This document shows positions 47,276 to 64,000 of a stretch of 64,000 bases of DNA, piece after piece (position 1 is the first letter of the stretch; each line of letters starts with the position of its first letter). Source of the stretch: Pedobacter lusitanus (GTDB taxonomy: Bacteria; Bacteroidota; Bacteroidia; Sphingobacteriales; Sphingobacteriaceae); the NCBI RefSeq assembly GCF_040026395.1, contig NZ_CP157278.1, positions 4,898,001 through 4,962,000 of the forward strand, written 5' to 3'. The notes beneath the pieces are model-generated. The model saw only the letters and a program-made list of their open reading frames with translations, was not told where the DNA came from and did no database searches. The translations under genes were made by a program, and so were the position numbers.

Positions 47276-48004
47276 ATGTCAGCTGATTTTAATATAAATA
47301 ATGGACTTACCTGTTTGTCTGAATTACCAGCATTATCATTATGGCTGATTTTTCTGGCAGAAAATATACTGATAACTATTCTCGTTCTGTTTTTCGGTAA
47401 GCTGGTGCAACAAAGATATTATTCAGCGTCTGCTTTTATTTCCTATTCTTATGAAGCCCGTGAATGGCAGATCTGTGCAGTGACTAATGTGCTGAATACA
47501 GCAGTTACCTATGCGGGATTTAAATTGTGGGAGTATAATTATATAAATATAACTGCGCACATTTCAGTAACTATACTCACAGACTTTTTACTGCTGTTTT
47601 TTGCAATGGATTTACTGATGTTTATATTTCATTACCTGATACACCAGACTTTTTTATACAAGATAGTACATCAGTTACATCATTTGGCTGTCCATCCCAA
47701 ACCGATCGACCTGTTTATTCTGCACCCACTGGAAACTATATCTTTTGGAGCATTATGGCTGGTTTTACTGATGCTGTTTCCTTTCAATATTTATGCGATT
47801 GTAATTTACCTTATTATCAATGTTGTATTTGGGTTGACTGGTCATTTAGGAATAGAACCATTACCACTCAGATTCCGGAATCTACCTGTGATCAGATACC
47901 TCGGGACATCGACTTTTCACCATCAGCATCATCAGTATGAAGACTTTAATTTTGGTTTTTATACCAGTATATGGGACAGGCTATTCGGAACGTACAAATC
48001 CTGA
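47276..48004 (+). CDS. Sterol desaturase / fatty acid hydroxylase family protein
   Basis: A 242-residue membrane di-iron protein with the histidine motifs HYLIH, HQLHH and STFHHQHHQYED among four membrane segments. Divergent from the copper operon. The substrate is unknown. Smaller than the paralogue at 33910 and not closely similar to it. Confidence 0.87.
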   Translation: MSADFNINNGLTCLSELPALSLWLIFLAENILITILVLFFGKLVQQRYYSASAFISYSYEAREWQICAVTNVLNTAVTYAGFKLWEYNYINITAHISVTILTDFLLLFFAMDLLMFIFHYLIHQTFLYKIVHQLHHLAVHPKPIDLFILHPLETISFGALWLVLLMLFPFNIYAIVIYLIINVVFGLTGHLGIEPLPLRFRNLPVIRYLGTSTFHHQHHQYEDFNFGFYTSIWDRLFGTYKS

Positions 48005-50667: not shown

Positions 50668-53600
50668 ATGGAAAATCTTAAGATAATCGGAATAACCCCA
50701 TTTGAGAAGCCAGATACCGAACTTGCGATTGCTTTAATACAGGCTGGAATTTTCCCTGTGATTAACCTTGGATATAGGCAATCTGATGCTGTTGAGGCAA
50801 TTAATGAATTAGTAAAGCGTGGTGTAACAGATTTTGGAGTATGCTTTCCATCGGCTGATTTTACATCAATTGCACTTCCTGTCCAGGTGACTTTGATTAT
50901 TATACCTTATGGTGTAGAAATCGTCCTTAAAGCCGGAGTTAAACTGATTTATCAGGTTTATGATATTGAATCAGCAAGACAAGCAAAAGCATTATCTGCT
51001 GATGGAATTATTGTAAAAGGTAATGAAGGCGCCGGAAGAGTTGGACACGAGTCATCTTTTGTACTTTTTCAACGTATTATAAAAGAGATTAAAGATATAC
51101 CTGTTTGGGTACAGGGTGGAGCAGGAGTACATACTGCTGCAGCTTTAATAGCCCAGGGAGCTGCGGGTATAATACTGGATAGCCAGCTGGTTTTATTTCC
51201 TGAGTGCAGTGCACCTAAAGCAATCAAAGATATATGTGCTAAATTGAGTGGTACAGAAACAAAGCTGGTAGATAACTGCCGTGTCCTGTACCGTCCTAAT
51301 TCGCCTGCTATTGCACATCATATATCCTATAAAGATCTTTCAGCATATTTTACAGATTTCGATCTTGAAAAAAGCTACCTTCCTTTAGGACAGGATATCG
51401 CTTTATCAGTTGATCTCTTCAGCAGATATAAAAAGTTAAATAAACTTGCATTCGGTATAAGGGAAGCTGTTTACGGACATTTAAATCAGGCAAAGTCATT
51501 AAATGTTATCAGTCCTGAAAATCCACTGGCCAAAGAACTGAACCTGACTTATCCTATTGCACAGGGACCAATGACAAGAGTCAGTGATGTTGCCGGCTTT
51601 GCAGATGCTGTTTCTGAAGCGGGAGCCTTATCATTTATTGCTTTATCCTTATTAAAAGGAGAAACTGCTAAAAACCTCATTAAAGATACAAAAAAGCTTG
51701 CAGGCACCAGAACCTGGGGCGTTGGTATTCTTGGTTTTGCTCCTCAGGAATTAAGGGACGAACAAATGAAATATATCCTGGAAGAGAAGCCACCGGTAGT
51801 TTTGATTGCCGGCGGACGTCCTTCACAGGCAAAACCACTTGAAAAAGCGGGTATAAAAACATTCCTTCATGTTCCATCAGCATCTCTGCTGGATATGTTT
51901 TTAAAAGAAGGAGCAAGAAGCTTTGTTTTTGAAGGCCGGGAATGCGGTGGTCACGTTGGCCCTTTATCAAGTATGGTCCTTTGGGAAAAGCAGATTGAAC
52001 GCTTACTTAAAGAAGATAATCCTGAGCAGATCAGTGTATTTTTTGCCGGTGGTATCCATGATTCTTTTTCTGCCGCATTTATTGCCGTTATGGCTGCTCC
52101 ACTTGCCGCTAAAGGTGTAAAAGTAGGTGTACTGATGGGAACTGCCTATTTATATACTAAAGAAGCCGTAACTACAGGTGCTATTCAAAATAAGTTTCAG
52201 CAGCAGGCTGTGAATGCCAGTGATACCATATTACTGGAAACTGCGCCGGGCCACGAAACAAGATGTCTTAAATCTCCGTTTTCTGACTTTTTCAGTGAAG
52301 AAAAAGAGAAACTTCAGCAGCAGGGAGTTGATAAAAAAGTGATCTGGGAAAAACTGGAAACACTTAACGTTGGCCGTTTAAGAATTGCTGCCAAAGGTAT
52401 AGAGCGCAGAGGCGATCAGCTGGTTAATATTGACGAAGCAGAACAGCTTACCTTAGGGATGTATATGATTGGCCAGGTGGCTGCAATGCAAAACAAAGTC
52501 GTTTCTCTTCTTGAATTGCATCAGGATGTTGCTGAAGGCAATTATCAGCATATTCTGGATGCCGAACTTTCTTCTCCACCTGAAAGAACAGGGAAATCTC
52601 TTGATGTGGCTATTGTTGGTATGGCCTGTATCTTTCCGGGAGCAAAAAATATTGAAGAATACTGGCGCAATATTATCCTGGGAAAAGATAGTGTGACAGA
52701 AGTTCCTGATGAACGCTGGAACAAAGAACTCTATTATAATCCCGACTCTACAGCTGGCGATATGTCACACTCTAAATGGGGTGGCTTTATTCCAAAAATA
52801 GATTTCGACCCGCTTGAATTTGGTATTCCGCCACAGTCACTTGCTGCCATTGAACCTACACAACTGTTAACACTGATGGTTGCTAAACAGGCGATGGAAA
52901 ACGCAGGTTATCAGGATGGCAGTTTCGATCATGAAAATGTATCTGTAATTATAGGTGCAGAAGGTGGGAATGACCTCGCGAACAGCTATGGATTCAGATG
53001 TTTCTATAAACAAGTATTTGGAGAAATGCCACCTGAAATAGATCAGGCATTGCCAAAAATGACAGAAGACTCATTCCCCGGAATTCTGGCCAATGTCATA
53101 TCCGGAAGAGTAGCTAACCGCTTGAATTTAGGCGGCCGTAACTTTACTGTAGATGCAGCTTGTGCATCTTCTCTCGCAGCTGTTGATCTGGCTTGCCAGG
53201 AGCTGTTTCTGGGAAAGTCTGATATGGTACTTGCAGGCGGAGCCGATTTACATAATGGAATCAATGATTACCTGATGTTTTCCAGTACACATGCACTTTC
53301 ACGTAAAGGCAGATGTGCAACTTTTGATGCCGGAGCAGATGGAATTGCACTGGGTGAGGGAATTGCAATGGTTGTCTTAAAAAGACATGAAGATGCACTG
53401 AGAGACGGAGACAGGATTTATTCTGTTATCAAAGGATTAGGTGGTTCAAGCGATGGTAAAAGTTTAGGTTTAACTGCACCACGTAAAAATGGGCAGGTTC
53501 AGGCATTGGAACGTGCTTATGATCAGGCTGGTATTACACCATCTGTTGTAGGTCTGGTAGAAGCTCACGGAACAGGAACTGTGGTTGGGGACAGAACAGA

Positions 53601-56600
53601 GCTTAGTGCTTTGACAGATAAGTTTATACAATCAGGTGCTGTAGCAGGTCAGGCACATCTGGGATCTGTAAAAACCCAGATCGGACATACCAAATGTGCA
53701 GCCGGGCTGGCAGGTCTGATTAAAGCATCGTTATCAGTTTATCACGGTATTAAACCTCCAACTATACATTTAAATAATCCAAACAGTTATTATAATGCAA
53801 AAACCAGTCCTTTTGCTTTCCATACTGAAGCAGGACTATGGATGCAGAACAGACGTTATGCAGGAATAAGTGCCTTTGGCTTTGGAGGAACTAATTTCCA
53901 TGCTGTTATTGAGAATAATAATCCGGTAAATACTGCTGTTCCAACTTTAAAATCATGGCCTTCAGAGTTATTTGTTTTCAGAGGAGATACCTACGAAGAA
54001 GCAAAACTAAAACTTACAGCAGTTAAGACATTGCTGGATAGTAACGCACAGATAGATTTAAAAGATATTGCTTATAGTCTGGCAATGGCCGATAATAAAC
54101 CCGTACAGTTATGTATTGTGGCCGATCGTGCTGAAGACCTGAATATGAAGCTCGAACTGACACTTTCTGGTATAGAAAGTAAAGATACTTATGCCACTAA
54201 AAAAAGAGAGGGTAAAGTAGCCTTTATGTTCCCCGGGCAGGGAAGTCAGCGGATTAATATGGCAAGAGATCTTTTTGTCATTTTCCCCGCTATGCGTGAA
54301 CTGTTAAAAGATCTGCCTCAATATGAAAAAGTGTTATTCCCTAATGCTGTGTTTAGTGCGGCATTGCTGAAAGAGCAAAAGGAGAATATTAAAGATACCC
54401 GTATGGCGCAGCCCTTACTTGGGATTGTGAATCTGGCTATAGCCAACTTCTTGAGAACTCTTGGAATTGTACCTGATATGGTTGCAGGACATAGTTATGG
54501 AGAGTTACCTGCTTTATGTTTCGCAGGTGCTTTTGCCGAAGATCAGCTGGTACAATTGAGTGCAGCAAGAGCACAGTCTATTCTGGATGCTGTTGAAGGC
54601 GGAGACACAGGTGCTATGGTTGCTGTGAATGCGAAACAGGAAGAATTACAAAAGGTTATTTCTGGTTTGACAGGTATCTATGCTGTGAACTATAACTCAC
54701 CGATGCAATGTGTACTGGCAGGTTCTACACCAGCAATAACCCATTTAATGGAAGTACTCAAAACGGCAAAAATATCTTTCAGACAACTGGAAGTTGCCTG
54801 TGCATTCCATAGTCCGCTTGTAGTTAAATCCAAAGAACTTTATCAGCAGACACTGGAGAAAGTACAGTTCACTGATCTGAACTTACCAGTATGGTCAAAT
54901 ACTACTGCGCAGGAATATCCTTTGCAGGCAGAACAGATCAAAGAAAGATTGACTGATCATCTGATTAAGCCGGTGAAATTTGTAGATCAGGTTCAGGAAA
55001 TGTATGCCGCAGGAGCCAGAATCTTTATCGAAGTTGGCCCGGGCAAAGTGCTGTCAGGTTTAACTAAAGCTTGTCTGGGTAAAGAAGAACTTTTACTGCA
55101 TGCAGAAGATAACGGACAGAATAAGCTGACCCATCTTTTATGTATGCTGGCAACCTACATCTCTACCGGACGTGATATCCATATCGAAAAATTATTTGAA
55201 GGCCGTGGCGCAAGATTATTAAATCTTAATGAACCGGCATTGTATAAAAAAAGCCCTGCAGTCTGGTTCGTTAATGGCCAGCATGCAATTCCTTCAAATG
55301 GGAAATTACCGGCAAACGGGGCATTACCTATCATAGAACCTATCCAAATGAAAAATAGAGAATTAAGATCGGAACCTTTACAGACGGCAACTTCTGCCAG
55401 TGACCTGATGATGCAGGAATACCTGAACAGTATGAAATTATTGATTCAGGCACAACGGGATGTGATGCTGACTTTTCTGGGACAGCATGTCCCTCTCCAT
55501 ACTGGTTTGTCCAATCCGGTAGCTATGCCGCAACCTGCTCAGCAGGTACAACAGGTATCGCAGGAACGTTATACGGTGGCAGCACCTCAGACACAGCCTG
55601 TCTTACAGCAAGCTGCAGCTGTTCCTGTTCAGGCGGTAGCAGAACAGAAAGATGTGAAACTGGCTTTGTTACAAATTGTCAGTGATAAAACCGGATATCC
55701 GCAGGAAATGTTAGGCATGGAGATGGATCTGGAAGCAGACCTGAGTATTGACTCTATTAAACGTCTGGAAATTATAGGAGCACTGCGTACTGAATTAGGA
55801 GGTTTTAGCAGTACCCAGAGTGAAGACACCGTAATGGAACAGCTGGCTGGTATAAAAACATTAAACGGGCTGGTTAACTGGATAACTGAAAATGCAGCAC
55901 CGGCTCATACCAATGTATCTGCCACCATCAATATAGAAGTTACTGTAAAAAGTAATCAGCCTAAATTTTCAGCAGAAGAACTGAGAACAGCTATTCTGTC
56001 CGTAGTCAGTGAAAAAACGGGTTATCCTGAAGAAATGCTGGGTATGGATCTTGATCTGGAAGCTGATTTAAGTATCGATTCCATTAAAAGAATGGAGATT
56101 ATCGGAGAATTAAAACTTAAAATAGGCTTTAATCAGGAACAGGAGCAGGGGGATGATTTAATGGAAAAACTTGCAGCTATTAAAACCCTGAATGGTTTGG
56201 TGAACTGGATCTCTGATCTGGAATCTGGCACTGATGAGGTTTTGACTGAAGCAAAGAAGATCATAGAAGAAGGTGTCGCTGATGCTGCCGGTTTAGAGAA
56301 ATTGTCCAGACTGAGATTTGAACTTACTCCTGCAGCACTCGCTGATATAGAAGCTGCAATCCTTAAAGGGCAGCGTTTTGCAATTACTGATGATGGCTAT
56401 GGTCAGGCTATTAAGATCAAAAATCTGTTTAAGAAACACGGTGCTGTGGTCAATGTGGTATGTGCAGGAGACAATCTGAGCAGTTACCAGGGATTGATTA
56501 TTCTGAACATGTTTACTACAGAGAAAAAATCAGGTATAATAGAGCATTTTGAGATGATCAAACAGCTGAATTTTGAAGCGGTGAAATGGGTTTATATGAT

Positions 56601-57717
56601 CTCTGATGTCAGAACCTATCTGAATGACAGTACTGATGTAGAAATGCTCAGACTTTATCAGGGATATTCAGGTTTCTTCAAAAGTCTGGACAGAGAGTAT
56701 GAAAATACTAAATGCAGACTGGTGAGTCTGGAAACAAAAATGACAGCAGAAGAGACCGCTAATATCACACTGAATGAGATTCTAAATCCGGATACACCTT
56801 CAGAAATCATCTATCATGGTGATAAAAGACAGATTATGGATCTGATCCCTGCTGAACTGATTACCGGACTGGAAGATTCTCATATTCAGCTGGATAAAGA
56901 TGCAGTTGTACTGGTCTTTGGTGGAGCACAGGGAATTACCGCCGAGCTGATGATTCACTTTGCTAAGGATTATCCTTGTAACTATATTCTTGTTGGCCGT
57001 TCAGCTGATCCAAAATCAGCAGTTCAGGGGAAAGCAGCATCCTTAAAGACAAAAGATGAGATCAGAAGTTATCTGGTTCAGCAGGGAGAACTTAAAAAAC
57101 CAGCGGAGATAGAACAGGAAACAGCCAGAATCTACAAGAATAATCAAATTCTGCATAGCATCGCCATGCTTGAAAATGGAGGTTCTAAAGTTGTTTATGA
57201 ATCCATGGATCTACGTGATGAAGAAGGACTGAGTCGTTTTGTTGACAATGTTTATCAAAAATATGGCCGTATAGACGGTGTTGTCCATGGAGCAGGTTTG
57301 CTGGAAGATAAATTATTCCACAGTAAAACTTCAGAGTCTTTTGAACGTGTATTTGATACCAAAGTTACTCCGCTGAGAGTGCTTGCAGAAAAGCTGAGAG
57401 CCGAAACTCAGTTTGTAATTCTCTTTTCAAGTATTGCTTCTGTTTATGGTAATCGCGGACAAACAGATTATGCTGCTGCAAACAGTGTAATGGATAAATA
57501 TGCCTGGGCGCTGAAACAAAAAATCAGTGGTAAAGTACTGGCTATTAACTGGGGACCGTGGAAAGGTGCTGGTATGGTTTCTCCGACACTGGAAAAAGAA
57601 TATGAAAGAAGAGGTATTGCACTTATTCCTTTGCAGGATGGTATGGAAACTTTTCTGAATGAACTGAAATATGGTAAGGAGAGTCAGGTTCTCATTATGG
57701 CTGGAAATAACTGGTAG
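50668..57717 (+). CDS. PUFA-synthase-like type I PKS: ER-like barrels (2), KS, AT, ACP, ACP, KR
   Basis: A 2349-residue iterative synthase. Residues about 1-230 and 300-610 are two FMN-barrel domains of the nitronate-monooxygenase/PfaD/FabK type. The second keeps GGHVG (His429); the first has GAGRVG there and looks degenerate. KS spans about 644-1085, with Cys832 in DAACASS, His967 in HGTGT and His1007. AT spans about 1180-1490, with PGQGSQ, GHSYGE (Ser1276) and a conserved Arg after it. Two ACPs carry LEADLSIDSIKR, with the phosphopantetheine Ser at 1696 and 1805. A structural half precedes the KR (about 2075-2330; Tyr2268). KS-AT-ACP-KR order and the ACP motif match PfaA. I chose ATG 50668 (MENLKIIGITPFE). 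First gene of the operon. Confidence 0.9.
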   Translation: MENLKIIGITPFEKPDTELAIALIQAGIFPVINLGYRQSDAVEAINELVKRGVTDFGVCFPSADFTSIALPVQVTLIIIPYGVEIVLKAGVKLIYQVYDIESARQAKALSADGIIVKGNEGAGRVGHESSFVLFQRIIKEIKDIPVWVQGGAGVHTAAALIAQGAAGIILDSQLVLFPECSAPKAIKDICAKLSGTETKLVDNCRVLYRPNSPAIAHHISYKDLSAYFTDFDLEKSYLPLGQDIALSVDLFSRYKKLNKLAFGIREAVYGHLNQAKSLNVISPENPLAKELNLTYPIAQGPMTRVSDVAGFADAVSEAGALSFIALSLLKGETAKNLIKDTKKLAGTRTWGVGILGFAPQELRDEQMKYILEEKPPVVLIAGGRPSQAKPLEKAGIKTFLHVPSASLLDMFLKEGARSFVFEGRECGGHVGPLSSMVLWEKQIERLLKEDNPEQISVFFAGGIHDSFSAAFIAVMAAPLAAKGVKVGVLMGTAYLYTKEAVTTGAIQNKFQQQAVNASDTILLETAPGHETRCLKSPFSDFFSEEKEKLQQQGVDKKVIWEKLETLNVGRLRIAAKGIERRGDQLVNIDEAEQLTLGMYMIGQVAAMQNKVVSLLELHQDVAEGNYQHILDAELSSPPERTGKSLDVAIVGMACIFPGAKNIEEYWRNIILGKDSVTEVPDERWNKELYYNPDSTAGDMSHSKWGGFIPKIDFDPLEFGIPPQSLAAIEPTQLLTLMVAKQAMENAGYQDGSFDHENVSVIIGAEGGNDLANSYGFRCFYKQVFGEMPPEIDQALPKMTEDSFPGILANVISGRVANRLNLGGRNFTVDAACASSLAAVDLACQELFLGKSDMVLAGGADLHNGINDYLMFSSTHALSRKGRCATFDAGADGIALGEGIAMVVLKRHEDALRDGDRIYSVIKGLGGSSDGKSLGLTAPRKNGQVQALERAYDQAGITPSVVGLVEAHGTGTVVGDRTELSALTDKFIQSGAVAGQAHLGSVKTQIGHTKCAAGLAGLIKASLSVYHGIKPPTIHLNNPNSYYNAKTSPFAFHTEAGLWMQNRRYAGISAFGFGGTNFHAVIENNNPVNTAVPTLKSWPSELFVFRGDTYEEAKLKLTAVKTLLDSNAQIDLKDIAYSLAMADNKPVQLCIVADRAEDLNMKLELTLSGIESKDTYATKKREGKVAFMFPGQGSQRINMARDLFVIFPAMRELLKDLPQYEKVLFPNAVFSAALLKEQKENIKDTRMAQPLLGIVNLAIANFLRTLGIVPDMVAGHSYGELPALCFAGAFAEDQLVQLSAARAQSILDAVEGGDTGAMVAVNAKQEELQKVISGLTGIYAVNYNSPMQCVLAGSTPAITHLMEVLKTAKISFRQLEVACAFHSPLVVKSKELYQQTLEKVQFTDLNLPVWSNTTAQEYPLQAEQIKERLTDHLIKPVKFVDQVQEMYAAGARIFIEVGPGKVLSGLTKACLGKEELLLHAEDNGQNKLTHLLCMLATYISTGRDIHIEKLFEGRGARLLNLNEPALYKKSPAVWFVNGQHAIPSNGKLPANGALPIIEPIQMKNRELRSEPLQTATSASDLMMQEYLNSMKLLIQAQRDVMLTFLGQHVPLHTGLSNPVAMPQPAQQVQQVSQERYTVAAPQTQPVLQQAAAVPVQAVAEQKDVKLALLQIVSDKTGYPQEMLGMEMDLEADLSIDSIKRLEIIGALRTELGGFSSTQSEDTVMEQLAGIKTLNGLVNWITENAAPAHTNVSATINIEVTVKSNQPKFSAEELRTAILSVVSEKTGYPEEMLGMDLDLEADLSIDSIKRMEIIGELKLKIGFNQEQEQGDDLMEKLAAIKTLNGLVNWISDLESGTDEVLTEAKKIIEEGVADAAGLEKLSRLRFELTPAALADIEAAILKGQRFAITDDGYGQAIKIKNLFKKHGAVVNVVCAGDNLSSYQGLIILNMFTTEKKSGIIEHFEMIKQLNFEAVKWVYMISDVRTYLNDSTDVEMLRLYQGYSGFFKSLDREYENTKCRLVSLETKMTAEETANITLNEILNPDTPSEIIYHGDKRQIMDLIPAELITGLEDSHIQLDKDAVVLVFGGAQGITAELMIHFAKDYPCNYILVGRSADPKSAVQGKAASLKTKDEIRSYLVQQGELKKPAEIEQETARIYKNNQILHSIAMLENGGSKVVYESMDLRDEEGLSRFVDNVYQKYGRIDGVVHGAGLLEDKLFHSKTSESFERVFDTKVTPLRVLAEKLRAETQFVILFSSIASVYGNRGQTDYAAANSVMDKYAWALKQKISGKVLAINWGPWKGAGMVSPTLEKEYERRGIALIPLQDGMETFLNELKYGKESQVLIMAGNNW

Positions 57718-57743
57718 CTGATTTGTATTAAATAATACGCCTA

Positions 57744-60700
57744 ATGAAGAAAACGGATGTAGCTGTAATCGGAATGTCCTGCATTTTCCCGGGTGCGGGA
57801 GATCTGGATACATTCTGGAAAAATATAATAAATAAGGTTGATTCTACTCAGGTTGTGCCACCGGATCGTATTGATCCGGTGCACTTCAATAAAGATTCTT
57901 CTGGTGTAGACCGTTTTTATTGCAATCGGGGAGGTTTTATTCCCGAATATAACTTCGATCCTCAGCGCTTTGGTATACTTCCTGTAGCAGTCAATGGTAC
58001 AGAACCTGATCATTTGCTAACGCTGGATCTGGTTTACCGGGCACTGGAAGATGCTGGCGTATTTGAAAAGAATGCCTCACTGGAAAAAACAGGTATTATC
58101 ATTGGAAAAGGTAATTATGCGGGTCCGGGAGCAACCAGAGCAATTGAAATTGTAAGAACCGGTGAACAGATTGCAGCAATATTGAAAGATTTACTGCCTC
58201 ATCTGGGAACTGAAGATATAGAAAAAGTAAAACACGAATTCCAATTGCGTAAGGGTCGTTTCGGACCCGATACAGCGATGGGGTTAATACCAAATCTGGT
58301 AGCCTCACTGGTAGCCAACCGTTTAAATCTGGGTGGAGTAGCCTTCACACTTGATGCCGCGTGTGCAAGTTCACTGATCGCAATAGATCATGCGGTTCAG
58401 GAATTGAATAGCGGCCGGTGTGATATGGTCATTGCCGGTGGTGTACATGTTGGACAAAATGCAGCTTTTTGGAGTATATTCTCCAATCTGGGTGCCTTAT
58501 CAAAGCAGGAAAAAATAAAGCCTTTTGATACCCATGCCGATGGGTTGATTATTGGCGAAGGCTGCGGATTTGTAGTTTTAAAACGCCTGGAAGATGCAAT
58601 TCAGGATAAGGACAGGATTTATGCAGTAATAAAGGGCGTTGGTGTAAGCAGTGACGGCAGTGGTACAAGCGTAATGAGTCCTTCGGTAAAAGGTCAGCTC
58701 AGAGCGATAGCGCAAGCCTGGAGCAATTCTGAGATCTCACCTGCCACTATAGGTTATATTGAAGCACATGGTACAGGAACCCCTCTGGGAGACAAAACTG
58801 AGCTGGAGACGCTGACGCAGTTTTTTGGTTTTGATGCTGAATTGCCGAAAGCAGGTATCGGAACAGTAAAATCAAATATTGGTCATGCGATGCCGGCAGC
58901 TGGAATTGCTGGTTTGATCAAAACCTGTTTAGCCTTATATCACGATACGCTGCCACCTACATTACATTGTGAAAATCCTTTGGCACAAATGGAAAAAACA
59001 CGGTTTTTAGCTGTGCAGGAACCATTGAGCTGGGAGAAAGCTGGTCTGCCTAAAATTGCCGGAGTTAATGCTTTTGGTTTTGGGGGAATCAATGCTCATG
59101 TTGTACTTGAAGGGTTTAATGCACCAAAAAAAGATGAGGTATTGTTAATTGCCCGCCCAACTCATGAAGAACTGATCTCTGCACTGGAAAATCAGGATTA
59201 TAGTGATGGCACAGGGAATTACCGTATTGCCGTATTTGATCCGACACCAGAAAGAATTAATAAAGCAATTAAAATAGCTTCAAAAAATAATCCGTGGCGT
59301 AATAAACAGGATATCTGGTATACCAACGAACCATTGATCAGCAATGGCGGAAAAGTTGCTTTTGTATTTCCCGGTCTGGACGGCCTGGCAGGTGGAGAAG
59401 TAGCCAGTGTTGCCGATTATTTTAATATCACAGACGATCAGCATATTAAAGCTGATGGTTTACTGAGTGAAGCCTTAAAAACCTTAAATAAAAGCAGCGT
59501 ACTTGATACAGCTCTTAAGCAACTGGGTGTAAAACCTGACATGAATGCAGGTCATAGCTTAGGCGAATGGCTGGCTGCGAGATCATCAGAACTTGCAGAA
59601 GAGAGTTCTGTTTTACAATTGCTTAAAGTGCTTAATCCTGAGACTTTTGAGCTGAAAGATTCCAGATTTATTGCAGTAGGTTGCGGAATAGAACAGCTTT
59701 TACCAATCATTGCTGATATTAATGACGTATATCTGTCCAATGACAACTGTCCGCAACAGGTTATTCTTTGTGGAAGTAAAAATGCGCTGGAAGAACTGAC
59801 GCCTGTTTTAAAAGCAAAACAGATCTTTCATCAGATATTACCTTTTCAGTCCGGGTTCCATTCTCCGTTTATAGCGGACAAGCTGGAAGTGATTCTGGAA
59901 GGGATGAAGGATATGCAATTCCGTAAAACAACCACCCCATTGTGGTCTGCAACAACTTTAGAGCTATACCCTGAAGGTTTTGAAGCAATCAGACAATTAA
60001 GTGCTGAACATTTGATTCAACCTGTCCGTTTCCGTGAACTGACAGAAAAACTATATGAACAGGGAGCAAGAGTATTTATACAGATCGGGTCAGGAGGACT
60101 AACAGGGTTTATAGATGATACACTAAAAGGAAAGAATTTCAGTACAATTTCTTCCAATGTACCAATCAGATCAGGACTAACTCAATTGCAGCGTGTAATC
60201 GCAGCTTTATTTGTAGAAGGCAGAGAAGTAGGAGTAAACTTTACAGGTAAAATCAAATCAGGGCCATCTTTCAGAGACAGAGGAATCAGATTAGAATTAG
60301 GCTTGCCGATTATTACCGGGTTAAGCACACTGAAAGGGCTTGCAGAGCAGCCGTCAGTTTATACAAAGCCAGACCCGATGGTCTATGCCAAAGGATTACT
60401 GGAAGATGTAGCTGATCCTGTAATGCAGGCTTTTAATGAAAATATACTGGAAATGGTAAATATCCAGGCAGAGATACAACAGCTGTTTAAAAACAGAGTT
60501 CTACAACCTGCAAACTATGCTATTAAACCTTCACCTGCTCAGGCATCACCAGTGATTTCAGCACCAGCTATCAGGGTACCATTTTCAAAACAGTTGGATA
60601 TTACTCTTGAAAATTGTCCTTACCTGATAGATCACGCACTGTTAAGGCAGCCTAAAGGCTGGCATTGCGTCGATGACATGGATCCGGTTATTCCAATGAC

Positions 60701-62018
60701 AATGATCTTTGAGTTATTTGGAGAGATTGCCGAAGAACAGTCACCAGGAGAGCAGGTGCAAAAAATATTGAATATCAAGGTATTCCAATGGATGAATGTG
60801 ATTAAGCCTTTCCGCGAAACCATTACCGGTGAATGGAAGGATCAGCAGAGCGTATATCTCAATCTGGAGCGGTTTGCAAATGCTGAAGTCATTTTATCAG
60901 AAAAGCTGGGTTCACCAGCTCAGGAATCATTTGATATTGGTAAAGTGCTGGATATCCAGAGAACTCCGGAACAGATTTATGAAAATCACATGTTTCACGG
61001 ACCAGGTTATCAGGGTATAAAATCACTGAAGGCTGTGGGTGAAAAAGGAATCACCGGTATTATTGAAAGTGGTGCAGGGAAAGGCTCTCTGCTGGATAAT
61101 GCAGGACAGCTTTTTGGTTTATGGCTTCAGCTGATCCTGACCAAAGACAGAATAGCCTTTCCGGTAAAAATACAGGAAATCGAGTTTTTTGAGAATATGC
61201 ACGATCAGCAGGGAGAGTTTGAATGTACCTGTGTACTGACGGAAATGAATGGAGAATTTGCTACAGGAAATTTTATCATCAAACGTAGTAATCGTGTATG
61301 GGCAATTATCTCAGGCTGGCAGAACAGGAGACTGGAAATAGATGACGCCTTATGGAGTGTTTCTATGTCACCGCTGCATAACCGTTTATCAAAGGAAATT
61401 GCACCGGGTATTTTTATGTTCCATAATGCCTATTCCAGAGTAGTTTCATGGGATTTTATCCTGAAACGTTATTTCAATCAGGACGAGAAAAAACATCATA
61501 ATTCATTGCTGCCCAATAAAAGGAAAGCCTGGATGATCAGCCGTGTGGCGGTAAAAGATGCAGTGAGAAATTTACTCAATAAAGAGAAACAACATGCATG
61601 TTACCCGATCACGTTTGAAATCAGGTCAGACGAGCGGCAAAAGCCTTACCCTCACGGTGGTCAAACTGCTGGTATTCATGTTTCTTTAGCACATAAAGGA
61701 ACTGATGCCGTGGGGGTTGCCCGCCTGGACAGACCTGTGGGTATTGATATTGAAAGTATTGAAGAACGCAGTAGCGGTTTCTTTGACCTGGCATTTGCCG
61801 ACACAGAGATGGTTTTGCTGGAAGGTAAAGATAAGGCCGAATGGGCTACCCGTTTCTGGACAGCCAAAGAAGCCTATGGCAAATATCTTGGCAAGGGCTT
61901 ACAGGGTAACCCTAAAGCTTATGTTATAGAAGAAATCAGAGGAGAAGAATTAAGAATCAAAGACGTATTTATAAAGACCATTAAACATCATAACTACATA
62001 ATCGGATGGACACAATAG
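57744..62018 (+). CDS. PKS subunit 2: KS, degenerate AT, DH, integrated Sfp-type PPTase
   Basis: A 1424-residue partner synthase. KS spans about 1-450 with an intact triad: Cys207 in DAACASS, His342 in HGTGT, His381 in NIGHAM. An AT-like domain (about 520-830) keeps GHSLGE (Ser605) and FHSP but reads FPGLDGL instead of FPGQGSQ, and lacks the Arg that usually binds the malonyl carboxylate. A PKS-type dehydratase follows (about 950-1170): His964 in YLIDHALL, MFHGPGYQG, and Asp1118 in LLDNAGQ. The last 150 residues are a phosphopantetheinyl transferase (VGIDIES, FWTAKEAYGKY). An integrated PPTase recalls enediyne synthases. It starts 26 bp after subunit 1 and overlaps the ACP gene by 13 bp. Confidence 0.88.
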   Translation: MKKTDVAVIGMSCIFPGAGDLDTFWKNIINKVDSTQVVPPDRIDPVHFNKDSSGVDRFYCNRGGFIPEYNFDPQRFGILPVAVNGTEPDHLLTLDLVYRALEDAGVFEKNASLEKTGIIIGKGNYAGPGATRAIEIVRTGEQIAAILKDLLPHLGTEDIEKVKHEFQLRKGRFGPDTAMGLIPNLVASLVANRLNLGGVAFTLDAACASSLIAIDHAVQELNSGRCDMVIAGGVHVGQNAAFWSIFSNLGALSKQEKIKPFDTHADGLIIGEGCGFVVLKRLEDAIQDKDRIYAVIKGVGVSSDGSGTSVMSPSVKGQLRAIAQAWSNSEISPATIGYIEAHGTGTPLGDKTELETLTQFFGFDAELPKAGIGTVKSNIGHAMPAAGIAGLIKTCLALYHDTLPPTLHCENPLAQMEKTRFLAVQEPLSWEKAGLPKIAGVNAFGFGGINAHVVLEGFNAPKKDEVLLIARPTHEELISALENQDYSDGTGNYRIAVFDPTPERINKAIKIASKNNPWRNKQDIWYTNEPLISNGGKVAFVFPGLDGLAGGEVASVADYFNITDDQHIKADGLLSEALKTLNKSSVLDTALKQLGVKPDMNAGHSLGEWLAARSSELAEESSVLQLLKVLNPETFELKDSRFIAVGCGIEQLLPIIADINDVYLSNDNCPQQVILCGSKNALEELTPVLKAKQIFHQILPFQSGFHSPFIADKLEVILEGMKDMQFRKTTTPLWSATTLELYPEGFEAIRQLSAEHLIQPVRFRELTEKLYEQGARVFIQIGSGGLTGFIDDTLKGKNFSTISSNVPIRSGLTQLQRVIAALFVEGREVGVNFTGKIKSGPSFRDRGIRLELGLPIITGLSTLKGLAEQPSVYTKPDPMVYAKGLLEDVADPVMQAFNENILEMVNIQAEIQQLFKNRVLQPANYAIKPSPAQASPVISAPAIRVPFSKQLDITLENCPYLIDHALLRQPKGWHCVDDMDPVIPMTMIFELFGEIAEEQSPGEQVQKILNIKVFQWMNVIKPFRETITGEWKDQQSVYLNLERFANAEVILSEKLGSPAQESFDIGKVLDIQRTPEQIYENHMFHGPGYQGIKSLKAVGEKGITGIIESGAGKGSLLDNAGQLFGLWLQLILTKDRIAFPVKIQEIEFFENMHDQQGEFECTCVLTEMNGEFATGNFIIKRSNRVWAIISGWQNRRLEIDDALWSVSMSPLHNRLSKEIAPGIFMFHNAYSRVVSWDFILKRYFNQDEKKHHNSLLPNKRKAWMISRVAVKDAVRNLLNKEKQHACYPITFEIRSDERQKPYPHGGQTAGIHVSLAHKGTDAVGVARLDRPVGIDIESIEERSSGFFDLAFADTEMVLLEGKDKAEWATRFWTAKEAYGKYLGKGLQGNPKAYVIEEIRGEELRIKDVFIKTIKHHNYIIGWTQ

Positions 62019-62308
62019 CGAAAAACAAACAATTAAATAACGACGAGATCTTTGAGCTGATGAAGCAATTTATCACAGAGGTTATAGGAGAAGAATTTGT
62101 AGAAGAAATGGATATCACTCCTAAAAGCTCTTTTACCAAAGATCTGGAAATGGACAGTATAGAAATTGTATCCTTCTCTGAAAAGATAAAAACACACTTT
62201 GGCGACCAGATTGATTTTACAGGATGGTTATCTGCTATGGATCTTGATCAGCTGATTAATCTGAACCTGGAAATGATCATTAATTATATACACGAATGCC
62301 AGTCATAA
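62006..62308 (+). CDS. Stand-alone acyl carrier protein
   Basis: A 100-residue acidic ACP with the attachment motif LEMDSIEIVS (Ser51) and helical ends. Its ATG lies inside the previous gene (13-bp overlap) and its end overlaps the hydrolase gene by 13 bp, so expression is tightly tied to the synthase. It probably holds a starter, or the finished chain for release or transfer. Confidence 0.9.
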   Translation: MDTIAKNKQLNNDEIFELMKQFITEVIGEEFVEEMDITPKSSFTKDLEMDSIEIVSFSEKIKTHFGDQIDFTGWLSAMDLDQLINLNLEMIINYIHECQS

Positions 62309-63057
62309 AAGTAAATCACAGAGATGTACACATTCAGGAACTGAATAAAGGAGCGGCCGAAACCGTTCTCTTAATTCATGGAATGTTCAGTAACCTCTCT
62401 GTTTATTACTTTAATATTGCCCCGGTACTGGCCGAACATTTTCATGTGGTGATGTACGATCTGAAAAGTCATGGAATGAGTGAACGTACACTGGAAGGTT
62501 ATGACCTGAACAGTATGACTGATGATCTTTATGCTTTAATGGAAGTACTTAAGCTGGAGAAGGTGCATCTGGCAGGTTATAGTTTTGGTGGTCTGATTGC
62601 TTTAAAAATGGCCGTTCGTTTCCCGGAAAAACTGAGGAAACTTGTCCTGATAGAAGCGCCGGACCCCAATGATGATAAAACCCGTGGTATTATTGAAGAA
62701 TACAGCAGGGAGTTTCTGGAACATTATGTAGCTAATTTTACGGATACAACTAAAGTGAAAATGGGTAAAAGACAGATGGACCGTAACCACCGGATGTATG
62801 AATATCTGTTTTATCAGACCAGTATCAAAAAAGACATGATTCAGGAGAGCGGTTTTTTTAGCGCACCTGAAATCAATACGATGCAGAAAGATACCCTTTT
62901 GTTGTATGGATCTGCTTCCAATTGTCTGGAAGCGGGTAAACAGCTTCATCAGAAAATCAGAAAATCAGATCTGATTCCATTAGATGGAGATCATAATATT
63001 CCTATTCAGGAACCCGTGATGATCGCGGAGATTGTTTCTGGATTTTTTAAGAATTAG
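62296..63057 (+). CDS. Alpha/beta hydrolase, likely release or editing enzyme
   Basis: A 253-residue alpha/beta-fold hydrolase with oxyanion region LLIHGMFSN, nucleophile elbow GYSFGG (Ser96), an acidic residue after LLYG, and the catalytic His in DGDHNIP. Within a PKS operon it may act as a thioesterase releasing the chain. It overlaps the ACP gene by 13 bp and ends 22 bp before the glycosyltransferase gene. Confidence 0.87.
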   Translation: MPVIKVNHRDVHIQELNKGAAETVLLIHGMFSNLSVYYFNIAPVLAEHFHVVMYDLKSHGMSERTLEGYDLNSMTDDLYALMEVLKLEKVHLAGYSFGGLIALKMAVRFPEKLRKLVLIEAPDPNDDKTRGIIEEYSREFLEHYVANFTDTTKVKMGKRQMDRNHRMYEYLFYQTSIKKDMIQESGFFSAPEINTMQKDTLLLYGSASNCLEAGKQLHQKIRKSDLIPLDGDHNIPIQEPVMIAEIVSGFFKN

Positions 63058-63079
63058 TTGTCAACTTAATACCTTATCA

Positions 63080-64000
63080 ATGGCGAAATTTGTATTTATA
63101 GTTCCTCCTTTAACAGGTCATATTAATCCTACCCTGAGTATGGGCGCTGTTTTGATTGGGCGTGGACATCAGGTTGGCTGGATTACACTTGACCCTGATT
63201 TAGGTTCCAGATTGCCCGAAGGTGGTGAATTGTTATTAATCAAATATAACGAGAGTGATCAGCAGAAACAGGATAGTGAGCAATATCTTGATATCATTAC
63301 CAAAAAAATTGTCTACGGAATAGACAGTATCAAGTTTTTATATGAAGAAGTTTTAATTCCATTAAACCGTCATAGTTATGAAGGGATAATAGAATGGCTG
63401 GAAAAGTATAAGCCCGATCTGGTCATTACAGATCACCAGATGTTTGCCGGAGCTATCGCCGCGGTCAATCAGAAAATACCTTATGCTACATCAGTAACGG
63501 CACCCGCTGCTATAAAAATCATGGATGAGCTACCCAAAGTCCACGAATGGGAGGTTAAGCAGATTGTTGATCTGCAAAAGGAACTGGGTATTGATAAACC
63601 AGTGTCAATTGCATGTTCGGGTCTGTTAACTATGGTTTTAACTTCAAAAGCATTTTTTGGGGAACTAGAATTGCCTGCACATTATCATTTTGTAGGACCG
63701 GTAATCAATCGCAAATCAGTAAAATCATCTTTTGACTGGGAGTTACTGCAAAAAAATAACAGGCCAAAAATATTAGTCAGTATCGGAACTACTTTTGATC
63801 ACGAGCATAAAAAGAACTTTTTTGCCAAAGTGATAGAAGCCTTCGGAGAAGAAGACATAACTGTAGTGGTTGTTTCAGAACCCTCACTATTTGAAGTCTG
63901 GCCAGATAATTTCATCGTTCAGCGGATGGTTCCGCAATTAGAATTATTACCGCATTTAGATGCAGTAGTTTGTCATGGCGGACATAATACTGTCTGTGAA
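63080..64000 (+). CDS. Family 1 (UGT/MGT-like) glycosyltransferase, cut by window end
   Basis: At least 307 residues of a GT-B glycosyltransferase. The N-terminus KFVFIVPPLTGHINPTLSMG is the acceptor-side signature of the macrolide/flavonoid GT1 group, and the C-terminal part shows CHGGHNT, a nucleotide-sugar-binding motif. Such enzymes attach a sugar to a hydroxyl of a small hydrophobic acceptor, here probably the product of the upstream synthase. The end lies beyond the window. Confidence 0.9.
   Translation, partial: MAKFVFIVPPLTGHINPTLSMGAVLIGRGHQVGWITLDPDLGSRLPEGGELLLIKYNESDQQKQDSEQYLDIITKKIVYGIDSIKFLYEEVLIPLNRHSYEGIIEWLEKYKPDLVITDHQMFAGAIAAVNQKIPYATSVTAPAAIKIMDELPKVHEWEVKQIVDLQKELGIDKPVSIACSGLLTMVLTSKAFFGELELPAHYHFVGPVINRKSVKSSFDWELLQKNNRPKILVSIGTTFDHEHKKNFFAKVIEAFGEEDITVVVVSEPSLFEVWPDNFIVQRMVPQLELLPHLDAVVCHGGHNTVCE

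Follow-up and report, generated by a model that had tools for sequence, protein, structure and literature searches.

A window of 64,000 nucleotides from Pedobacter lusitanus (contig NZ_CP157278.1, positions 4898001 to 4962000 of a 6.05-Mb genome in a single contig) ends within an operon of nine genes, all on the plus strand, that occupies 50668-68803 and was followed beyond the window in the flanking DNA of the same genome. The operon encodes two large proteins related to polyketide synthases (PKSs), PKS1 and PKS2, together with a free acyl carrier protein (ACP), an alpha/beta hydrolase, two GT1 glycosyltransferases (GTs), two PapA-like acyltransferases and a small membrane protein (Table 1). 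Consecutive genes overlap by at most 13 bases or are separated by at most 26, apart from a gap of 156 bases 5' of acyltransferase A. An earlier note on the window had listed the genes and domains up to position 64000 and had predicted a self-contained, iterative synthase resembling those for polyunsaturated fatty acids (PUFAs), equipped with its own 4'-phosphopantetheinyl transferase (PPTase) and a GT. The gene and domain set was confirmed, and the analysis supports a self-contained iterative synthase of the Pfa type with its own PPTase and GT. Reading on past position 64000, as the note had proposed, added the end of GT A, GT B, the two PapA-like acyltransferases and the membrane protein.

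Table 1. Genes of the operon and domains of its two synthase proteins, in window coordinates (numbers above 64000 lie beyond the window; ER, enoyl reductase; KS, ketosynthase; AT, acyltransferase domain; KR, ketoreductase; DH, dehydratase).
Feature	Position	Strand	Remarks
PKS1	50668-57717	+	ER (degenerate)-ER-KS-AT-ACP-ACP-KR
PKS1 ER1	50668-51297	+	TIM-barrel-like degenerate enoyl reductase half; Pfam NMO, E 2e-8
PKS1 ER2	51499-52575	+	FabK/PfaD-type enoyl reductase; motif ECGGH intact
PKS1 KS1	52591-53916	+	Pfam; Cys-His-His intact in 80/80 orthologues
PKS1 AT1	54223-55056	+	malonyl-type; GHSYGE, Arg, AFHSP; Ser, Arg and His in 80/80
PKS1 ACP1	55645-55872 (limits approximate)	+	Pfam; LSIDSIKR, Ser in 80/80
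PKS1 ACP2	55975-56202 (limits approximate)	+	LSIDSIKR, Ser in 80/80
PKS1 KR	56902-57564	+	Pfam KR; Ser, Tyr and Asn in 80/80
PKS2	57744-62018	+	KS-AT-DH-PPTase
PKS2 KS2	57744-59138	+	Pfam; Cys-His-His in 81/81
PKS2 AT2	59316-60143	+	PfaB-like; GHSLGE Ser and His kept, malonyl-binding Arg missing
PKS2 DH	60555-61334	+	PKS-type dehydratase; similar to the one in the DH-PPTase protein of Type P
PKS2 PPTase	61371-62018 (start approximate)	+	C-terminal; Pfam ACPS; Asp and Glu in 80/81, one gap
Free ACP	62006-62308	+	NCBIfam ACP models, scores below cut-off
Alpha/beta hydrolase	62296-63057	+	Pfam; catalytic Ser96, His233
GT A	63080-64285 (window part 63080-64000)	+	GT1 glycosyltransferase; start is its ATG
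GT B	64295-65500	+	second GT1 glycosyltransferase; beyond window
Acyltransferase A	65657-66934	+	PapA-like; Pfam PapA_C; beyond window
Acyltransferase B	66937-68211	+	PapA-like; Pfam PapA_C; beyond window
Small membrane protein	68204-68803 (extended coordinates; L010:11204-11803)	+	last operon gene; no Pfam match

Comparison across species confirms the operon as a unit. Scanning one genome per species with PKS2 matched 166 stretches, of which 131 encode relatives; the best 80 of these were kept and, with the window, make up 81 loci, to which the orthologue counts given here refer. The order PKS1-PKS2-hydrolase-GT-PapA-like on one strand is retained in 79 of the 81 loci, and the other two (L085 and L117) are interrupted by contig ends. 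PKS2 is present in all 81 loci, PKS1 in 80, the hydrolase in 79, the ACP (counted as an open reading frame of at least 80 amino acids) in 75 and the membrane protein in 73; the ACP and membrane protein were both called in 70 of the 79 ordered loci. The flanks are not conserved, with no neighbouring family found in more than 11 loci within about 3 kb per side (medians of 2.9 and 3.4 kb). Genera that carry the operon include Pedobacter, Mucilaginibacter, Sphingobacterium, Chryseobacterium and Flavobacterium, as well as Chitinophaga, Flavihumibacter, Taibaiella, Filimonas and Dyadobacter. The closest named relatives of PKS2 are those of Pedobacter sp. PAMC26386 and P. cryoconitis strains (86-91% identity).

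Tandem ACPs with a DSIKR motif are a mark of the Pfa-type secondary lipid synthase superfamily, and PKS1 has two ACPs with LSIDSIKR. PKS1 also scores above the cut-off of the NCBIfam PfaA model (1051 versus 1010 bits). By these marks PKS1 is a member of the superfamily, and PKS1 and PKS2 together form an iterative type I fatty-acid/polyketide synthase in which the active sites checked are intact save that of ER1. The complete reductive set of the earlier note therefore stands for KR, DH and ER2, which are intact, but not for ER1. Of the two ER barrels of PKS1, only ER2 keeps the proposed catalytic histidine; the corresponding motif III histidine of ER1 is present in 3 of 80 orthologues and missing in 77, and it is also missing in all four distant proteins that were aligned (from Streptomyces, Beijerinckia, Methylosinus and Rhodobacteraceae SC52). 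The possibility that both ERs are active was rejected on this account. The fold of ER1 rests on the Pfam match and on eight beta strands in the structure model, since the VIA list for PKS1 residues 1-636 mainly spans residues 248-636.

The earlier note had placed an AT in both proteins. AT1 is of the malonyl type, but AT2 lacks the malonyl arginine: across the 81 PKS2 proteins the position holds Asn in 73, Thr in 3, Asp in 3 and His in 2, and Arg in none, so that the domain does not resemble a malonyl AT. The available part of the PfaB paper reports Asn482 at the malonyl Arg position in PfaB of S. baltica, which is a long-chain acyltransferase (PMC12895367). PfaB and PKS2 are alike in having a KS-AT unit whose AT lacks the malonyl Arg, going by that description, and unlike in that PKS2 continues into DH and PPTase domains. 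Structure comparison gives the DH a PKS fold, and the domain aligns with the DH of Type P relatives; the structure alignments (A1 and A2) cover 30 of the 80 loci plus the window.

The PUFA-like label given to the locus by the earlier note holds as far as the Pfa-type superfamily is concerned, but the nearest characterised type appears to be Type P, the phenolic-lipid synthase, and Pfam output for the operon's synthase proteins contains no FabA-like domain; a PUFA is thus not the default product. Pfam output likewise contains no second KS/chain length factor (CLF) pair on one protein. According to the available part of a survey of these synthases, the synthases for eicosapentaenoic and docosahexaenoic acid (EPA/DHA; Types A and B) have a PPTase with the P0 motif hRxhLS (PMC3098273), which is not present in the final 260 amino acids of 78 of 80 full-length PKS2 proteins. 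Whereas EPA/DHA synthases have a PfaC [KS-CLF-DH2] with DH/isomerase domains, the operon has a single DH. An EPA/DHA synthase was rejected on the grounds of the absent FabA domain, the absent second KS/CLF pair, the PKS fold of the DH and the missing P0 motif.

The serine of the DSIE motif of the free ACP is conserved in at least 97% of 75 ACPs, and the serine and histidine of the hydrolase are kept in 79 of 79. GT A is similar to YjiC and macrolide GTs. Among the 79 ordered loci, 51 have a pair of GT genes, 27 have the two fused into one gene of about 800 amino acids and 1 has one GT gene only, the fused form being seen in Chryseobacterium, Sphingobacterium and Flavobacterium loci (L074 and 26 others). 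PapA-like genes number two in 68 of these loci, three in 10 and one in 1. Both PapA-like proteins of P. lusitanus exceed the Pfam PapA_C cut-off, acyltransferase A barely. The HHxxxDG motif, the active-site signature of condensation-type domains, is found in acyltransferase A in 78 of 78, and all 78 acyltransferase B proteins keep the catalytic histidine and aspartate, the residue preceding the histidine being Pro in 74 and Ala in 4. The best solved relative of both is 8s6l, a weak match (E 2.8e-19 for A and 1.3e-21 for B) annotated as 'phthiocerol/phthiodiolone dimycocerosyl transferase', presumably the mycobacterial enzyme PapA5. In Pedobacter sp. PAMC26386 (L043:17787-19063), and seemingly also in P. 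jeongneungensis (L060), acyltransferase A is spread over two reading frames and may be decaying or mis-sequenced. The membrane protein is the final operon gene in 73 of 81 loci, and 69 of these 73 proteins contain 3 or 4 hydrophobic stretches.

The earlier note had named KS domains lying within ordinary modular PKS clades as the result that would speak against its reading. In a KS-AT tree of 19 hand-picked rows, six of them outgroup rows that are ordinary type I PKSs by our choice, 13 Pfa-like rows, including PKS1 and the enediyne synthase SgcE, split from the ordinary ones with support of 100/100, and an ordinary modular PKS was rejected accordingly. A Streptomyces row (L126) is sister to the Bacteroidota (100/99) in this tree. 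In the KS tree, built from 49 of the 51 KS domains found after two partial rows had been dropped, KS1 is placed with the Pfa-like and Type P rows (fork 94/91, unstarred) and KS2 forms a clade of its own with the Streptomyces KS2 (100/99).

Among characterised types, the closest relative appears by pairwise comparison to be the phenolic-lipid (Type P) synthase (ArsA/ArsD), although the tree leaves this kinship unsettled. A Beijerinckia protein aligns with PKS1 from PKS1 residue 4 over 1651 columns at 41% identity, covering both ER barrels, and a 629-residue protein of the same plasmid aligns with PKS2 residues 953-1422, the DH and PPTase (26%, 524 columns). A Persicobacter stretch matches PKS1 across KS-AT, ACP and KR but shows no ER barrels in the part compared; the 'PfaA' and 'PfaC' labels of the Persicobacter rows are our reading of domain order. 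Since Beijerinckia matches through both ER barrels and the DH-PPTase and the Persicobacter stretch shows no barrels, the Type P comparison is, on sequence grounds, the best guide to the chain. The two systems share an ER-ER-KS-AT-ACP-KR protein, a degenerate ER1 and, in Beijerinckia and Methylosinus, a homologous DH-PPTase, which in the operon is fused behind KS-AT. In the available part of the survey, Beijerinckia is classed as Type P, and the Type P chain, a C22-26 alkyl chain in Azotobacter, is passed to type III PKSs (PMC3098273). No type III PKS is found among the operon genes by Pfam; the Beijerinckia plasmid encodes two proteins with a KAS III C-terminal domain.

Two Streptomyces plasmids, NZ_CP108735 and NZ_CP108492, carry a run of PKS1, PKS2, ACP, hydrolase, GT and methyltransferase genes, with an IS3-type transposase gene within about 1 kb after it. 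The two-protein synthase, ACP, hydrolase and GT come in the identical order in these clusters (L126 and L127) and in the operon, with identities of 44%, 34%, 27%, 30% and 34%, respectively, between NZ_CP108492 and the window, but the plasmids have a methyltransferase after the GT where the operon has the second GT and PapA-like pair. Because the five-gene core is also found on these plasmids, the synthase and GT are the shared core, to which the Bacteroidota add another GT, the two PapA-like genes and the membrane protein. When 7989 candidates were scored in a search with the PKS2 of NZ_CP108492, 2183 proteins reached E ≤1e-20; among the best 120 of the 2183, the ones with names are Streptomyces or actinobacterial.

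The operon synthase is probably the Type N of Shulse and Allen (2011). The available part of that study lists Type N in Chitinophaga pinensis DSM 2588 and Chryseobacterium gleum ATCC 35910 with an uncharacterised product, suggests a role in resting cells, arranges the types according to their KS tree, where N comes between M, O and P, and counts N with those that have a nearby PPTase (PMC3098273). The phylum and two genera, Chitinophaga and Chryseobacterium, are common to Type N and the operon. The names of these two strains do not appear among the 80 loci, the best 120 of 4984 or the best 120 of 1929, and the word 'glycosyltransferase' does not occur in the article (PMC3098273). Fused pfaDA and pfaBC-PPTase genes, likened to Renibacterium, are described in the available part of a report on hybrids of nonribosomal peptide synthetases (NRPSs) and PKSs in Aquimarina and Flavobacterium (PMC13291983), and by that description their fusion pattern is similar to that of the operon. 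The heterocyst glycolipid island (hgl) likewise combines a secondary-lipid synthase with a glycosyltransferase but has a differing gene set, as described in the available part of PMC11804610. The titles and abstract openings searched, a coverage that excludes most subscription journals, held no product or description of this operon with its GT and PapA-like genes; the available part of PMC8510958 gives no product for it, and the terms PUFA, hglE and T1PKS are absent from those of PMC12181424 and PMC10609062.

What does the operon make? We consider it fairly probable that it directs synthesis of a glycosylated and acylated long-chain lipid by an iterative fatty-acid-type synthase. We infer the identity of the product from the genes, and likewise the long and mostly reduced chain, its delivery by AT2 to the free ACP, and its glycosylation and esterification. 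The PPTase would arm the three carrier proteins, AT1 would load malonyl units and KS1 would elongate. Each new unit would be reduced by KR, DH and ER2 to give a mostly saturated long chain, as with the Type P synthase, with ER1 acting as a structural partner of ER2. AT2 would then take the finished chain in the manner of PfaB and place it on the free ACP, whereupon the hydrolase, the two GT1 enzymes and the two PapA-like acyltransferases may release, glycosylate and esterify it; KS2 and the membrane protein are assigned no role in this scheme. The released, glycosylated chain of the earlier note is thus incomplete: the GT was confirmed, but with another GT and a pair of PapA-like acyltransferases behind it, acylation is to be expected too.

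Several points weigh against this reading. The hydrolase has Asn in place of the usual acid residue in 76 of 79 (Asp123 or Glu120 is a possible alternative), and the scheme does not account for the hydroxyl that would accept the sugar. The analogy with the Type P product may fail, because the DH-PPTase protein of Beijerinckia and Methylosinus is without KS-AT. Type P was compared here through the Beijerinckia sequence, and in the available part of the survey the Type P chain is known from Azotobacter while Beijerinckia was not found to make phenolic lipids (PMC3098273). The join of PKS1 and Type P in the KS-AT tree has support of 77/81, unstarred, and a grouping of PKS1 with Persicobacter, Azospirillum and Streptomyces NBC_00503 rows is not rejected (approximately unbiased [AU] test, p 0.24). 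AT2 is PfaB-like by comparison of its Arg position with the paper's description rather than with the sequences of PfaB proteins. The same paper calls the KS of PfaB a pseudo-KS (PMC12895367), whereas KS2 is intact.

It is possible, if unlikely, that the synthase makes acyl groups only, the GTs building a sugar head on some other acceptor that the PapA-like pair esterifies, with the PKS product as acyl donor and not aglycone. Mycobacterial PapA enzymes esterify with PKS-made acids, the two PapA-like enzymes lie directly 3' of the GTs, and the free ACP could act as donor. The two Streptomyces plasmids argue otherwise: their run of six genes includes the GT but nothing PapA-like, which makes it probable that the GT acts with the synthase independently of such enzymes. 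Less probable again is a polyunsaturated, polyene or hydroxylated chain, nearer to PUFA or heterocyst-glycolipid products, with reduction skipped in some cycles. Iterative enzymes can programme reduction, and both the PfaA score of PKS1 and the unrejected grouping with Pfa-like rows (AU p 0.24) would suit such a chain, but the missing FabA-like domain, the PKS-type DH, the P0 motif lacking in 78 of 80 and the ER carried on the KS polypeptide, as in Type P, do not. A polyketide that is glycosylated but not a lipid (a pyrone or lactone, for example), the hydrolase then being a cyclase or transesterase, seems quite improbable; the similarity of GT A to macrolide GTs and the intact KS2 would agree with it, but the KS-AT tree sets PKS1 apart from the rows of ordinary type I PKSs and the reductive active sites are conserved.

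Of 60 genomes from the genus to which the window belongs, 23 contain PKS2, as do 56 of 98 from another genus that is probably Chryseobacterium. Full-length matches occurred in 7 of 151 family genomes (31 of 151 with any match at the limit applied, the remainder by KS alone) and in 4 of 395 phylum genomes; the window's genome is counted in these figures where it was sampled. In a PKS2 tree of 42 of the 81 rows (at most 5-8 per genus, proteins below 1300 residues excluded), Sphingobacterium groups with Chryseobacterium and Flavobacterium, and the fused GT is common to all three. Forcing the Sphingobacteriaceae rows together (L054 included) was rejected (AU p 4.7e-5, 42 rows), a result that fits horizontal transfer. 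Downstream of the operon lie a GNAT gene and then an Lrp-type regulator and a PALP gene. Two Pedobacter genomes keep this Lrp-PALP pair with other genes in the operon's place; one (G029) has no PKS2 match and the other (G018) has the operon on a different contig. Upstream, outside the conserved unit, a fatty acid hydroxylase-type gene (PF04116) is located at 47276-48004. An NRPS-PKS-like locus encoding proteins of 1358 and 2194 amino acids lies on the minus strand at genome positions 5009639-5021067 (L012:1639-13067), about 48-59 kb downstream of the window. A second operon copy some 50 kb downstream was considered and rejected, as the large KS protein there resembles, by eye, the start of an NRPS-PKS.

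This type of synthase has probably been catalogued since 2011 without a product, and the ends of its operon and its tailoring genes are now defined. We would tentatively suggest, while thinking it rather unlikely in full, that soil Bacteroidota owe to this operon, spread horizontally, a mycobacteria-like lipid that is either secreted or part of the envelope. It would be a chemically undescribed, diglycosylated very-long-chain lipid doubly esterified by PapA-like enzymes, and its synthase would be of the phenolic-lipid type, with a PfaB-like KS-AT that is active. If so, the core of synthase and GT would be one pathway common to Bacteroidota and Streptomyces. Gene deletion has been worked out in the P. 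cryoconitis branch, in strain PAMC 27485, according to the available part of PMC12181424. Since P. cryoconitis DSM 14825 (L044), of the same branch, carries the operon, comparing the lipids of a single deletion mutant with those of its parent could identify the product. Identifying it would also bear on whether PfaB-like acyltransferases pass chains to free ACPs.

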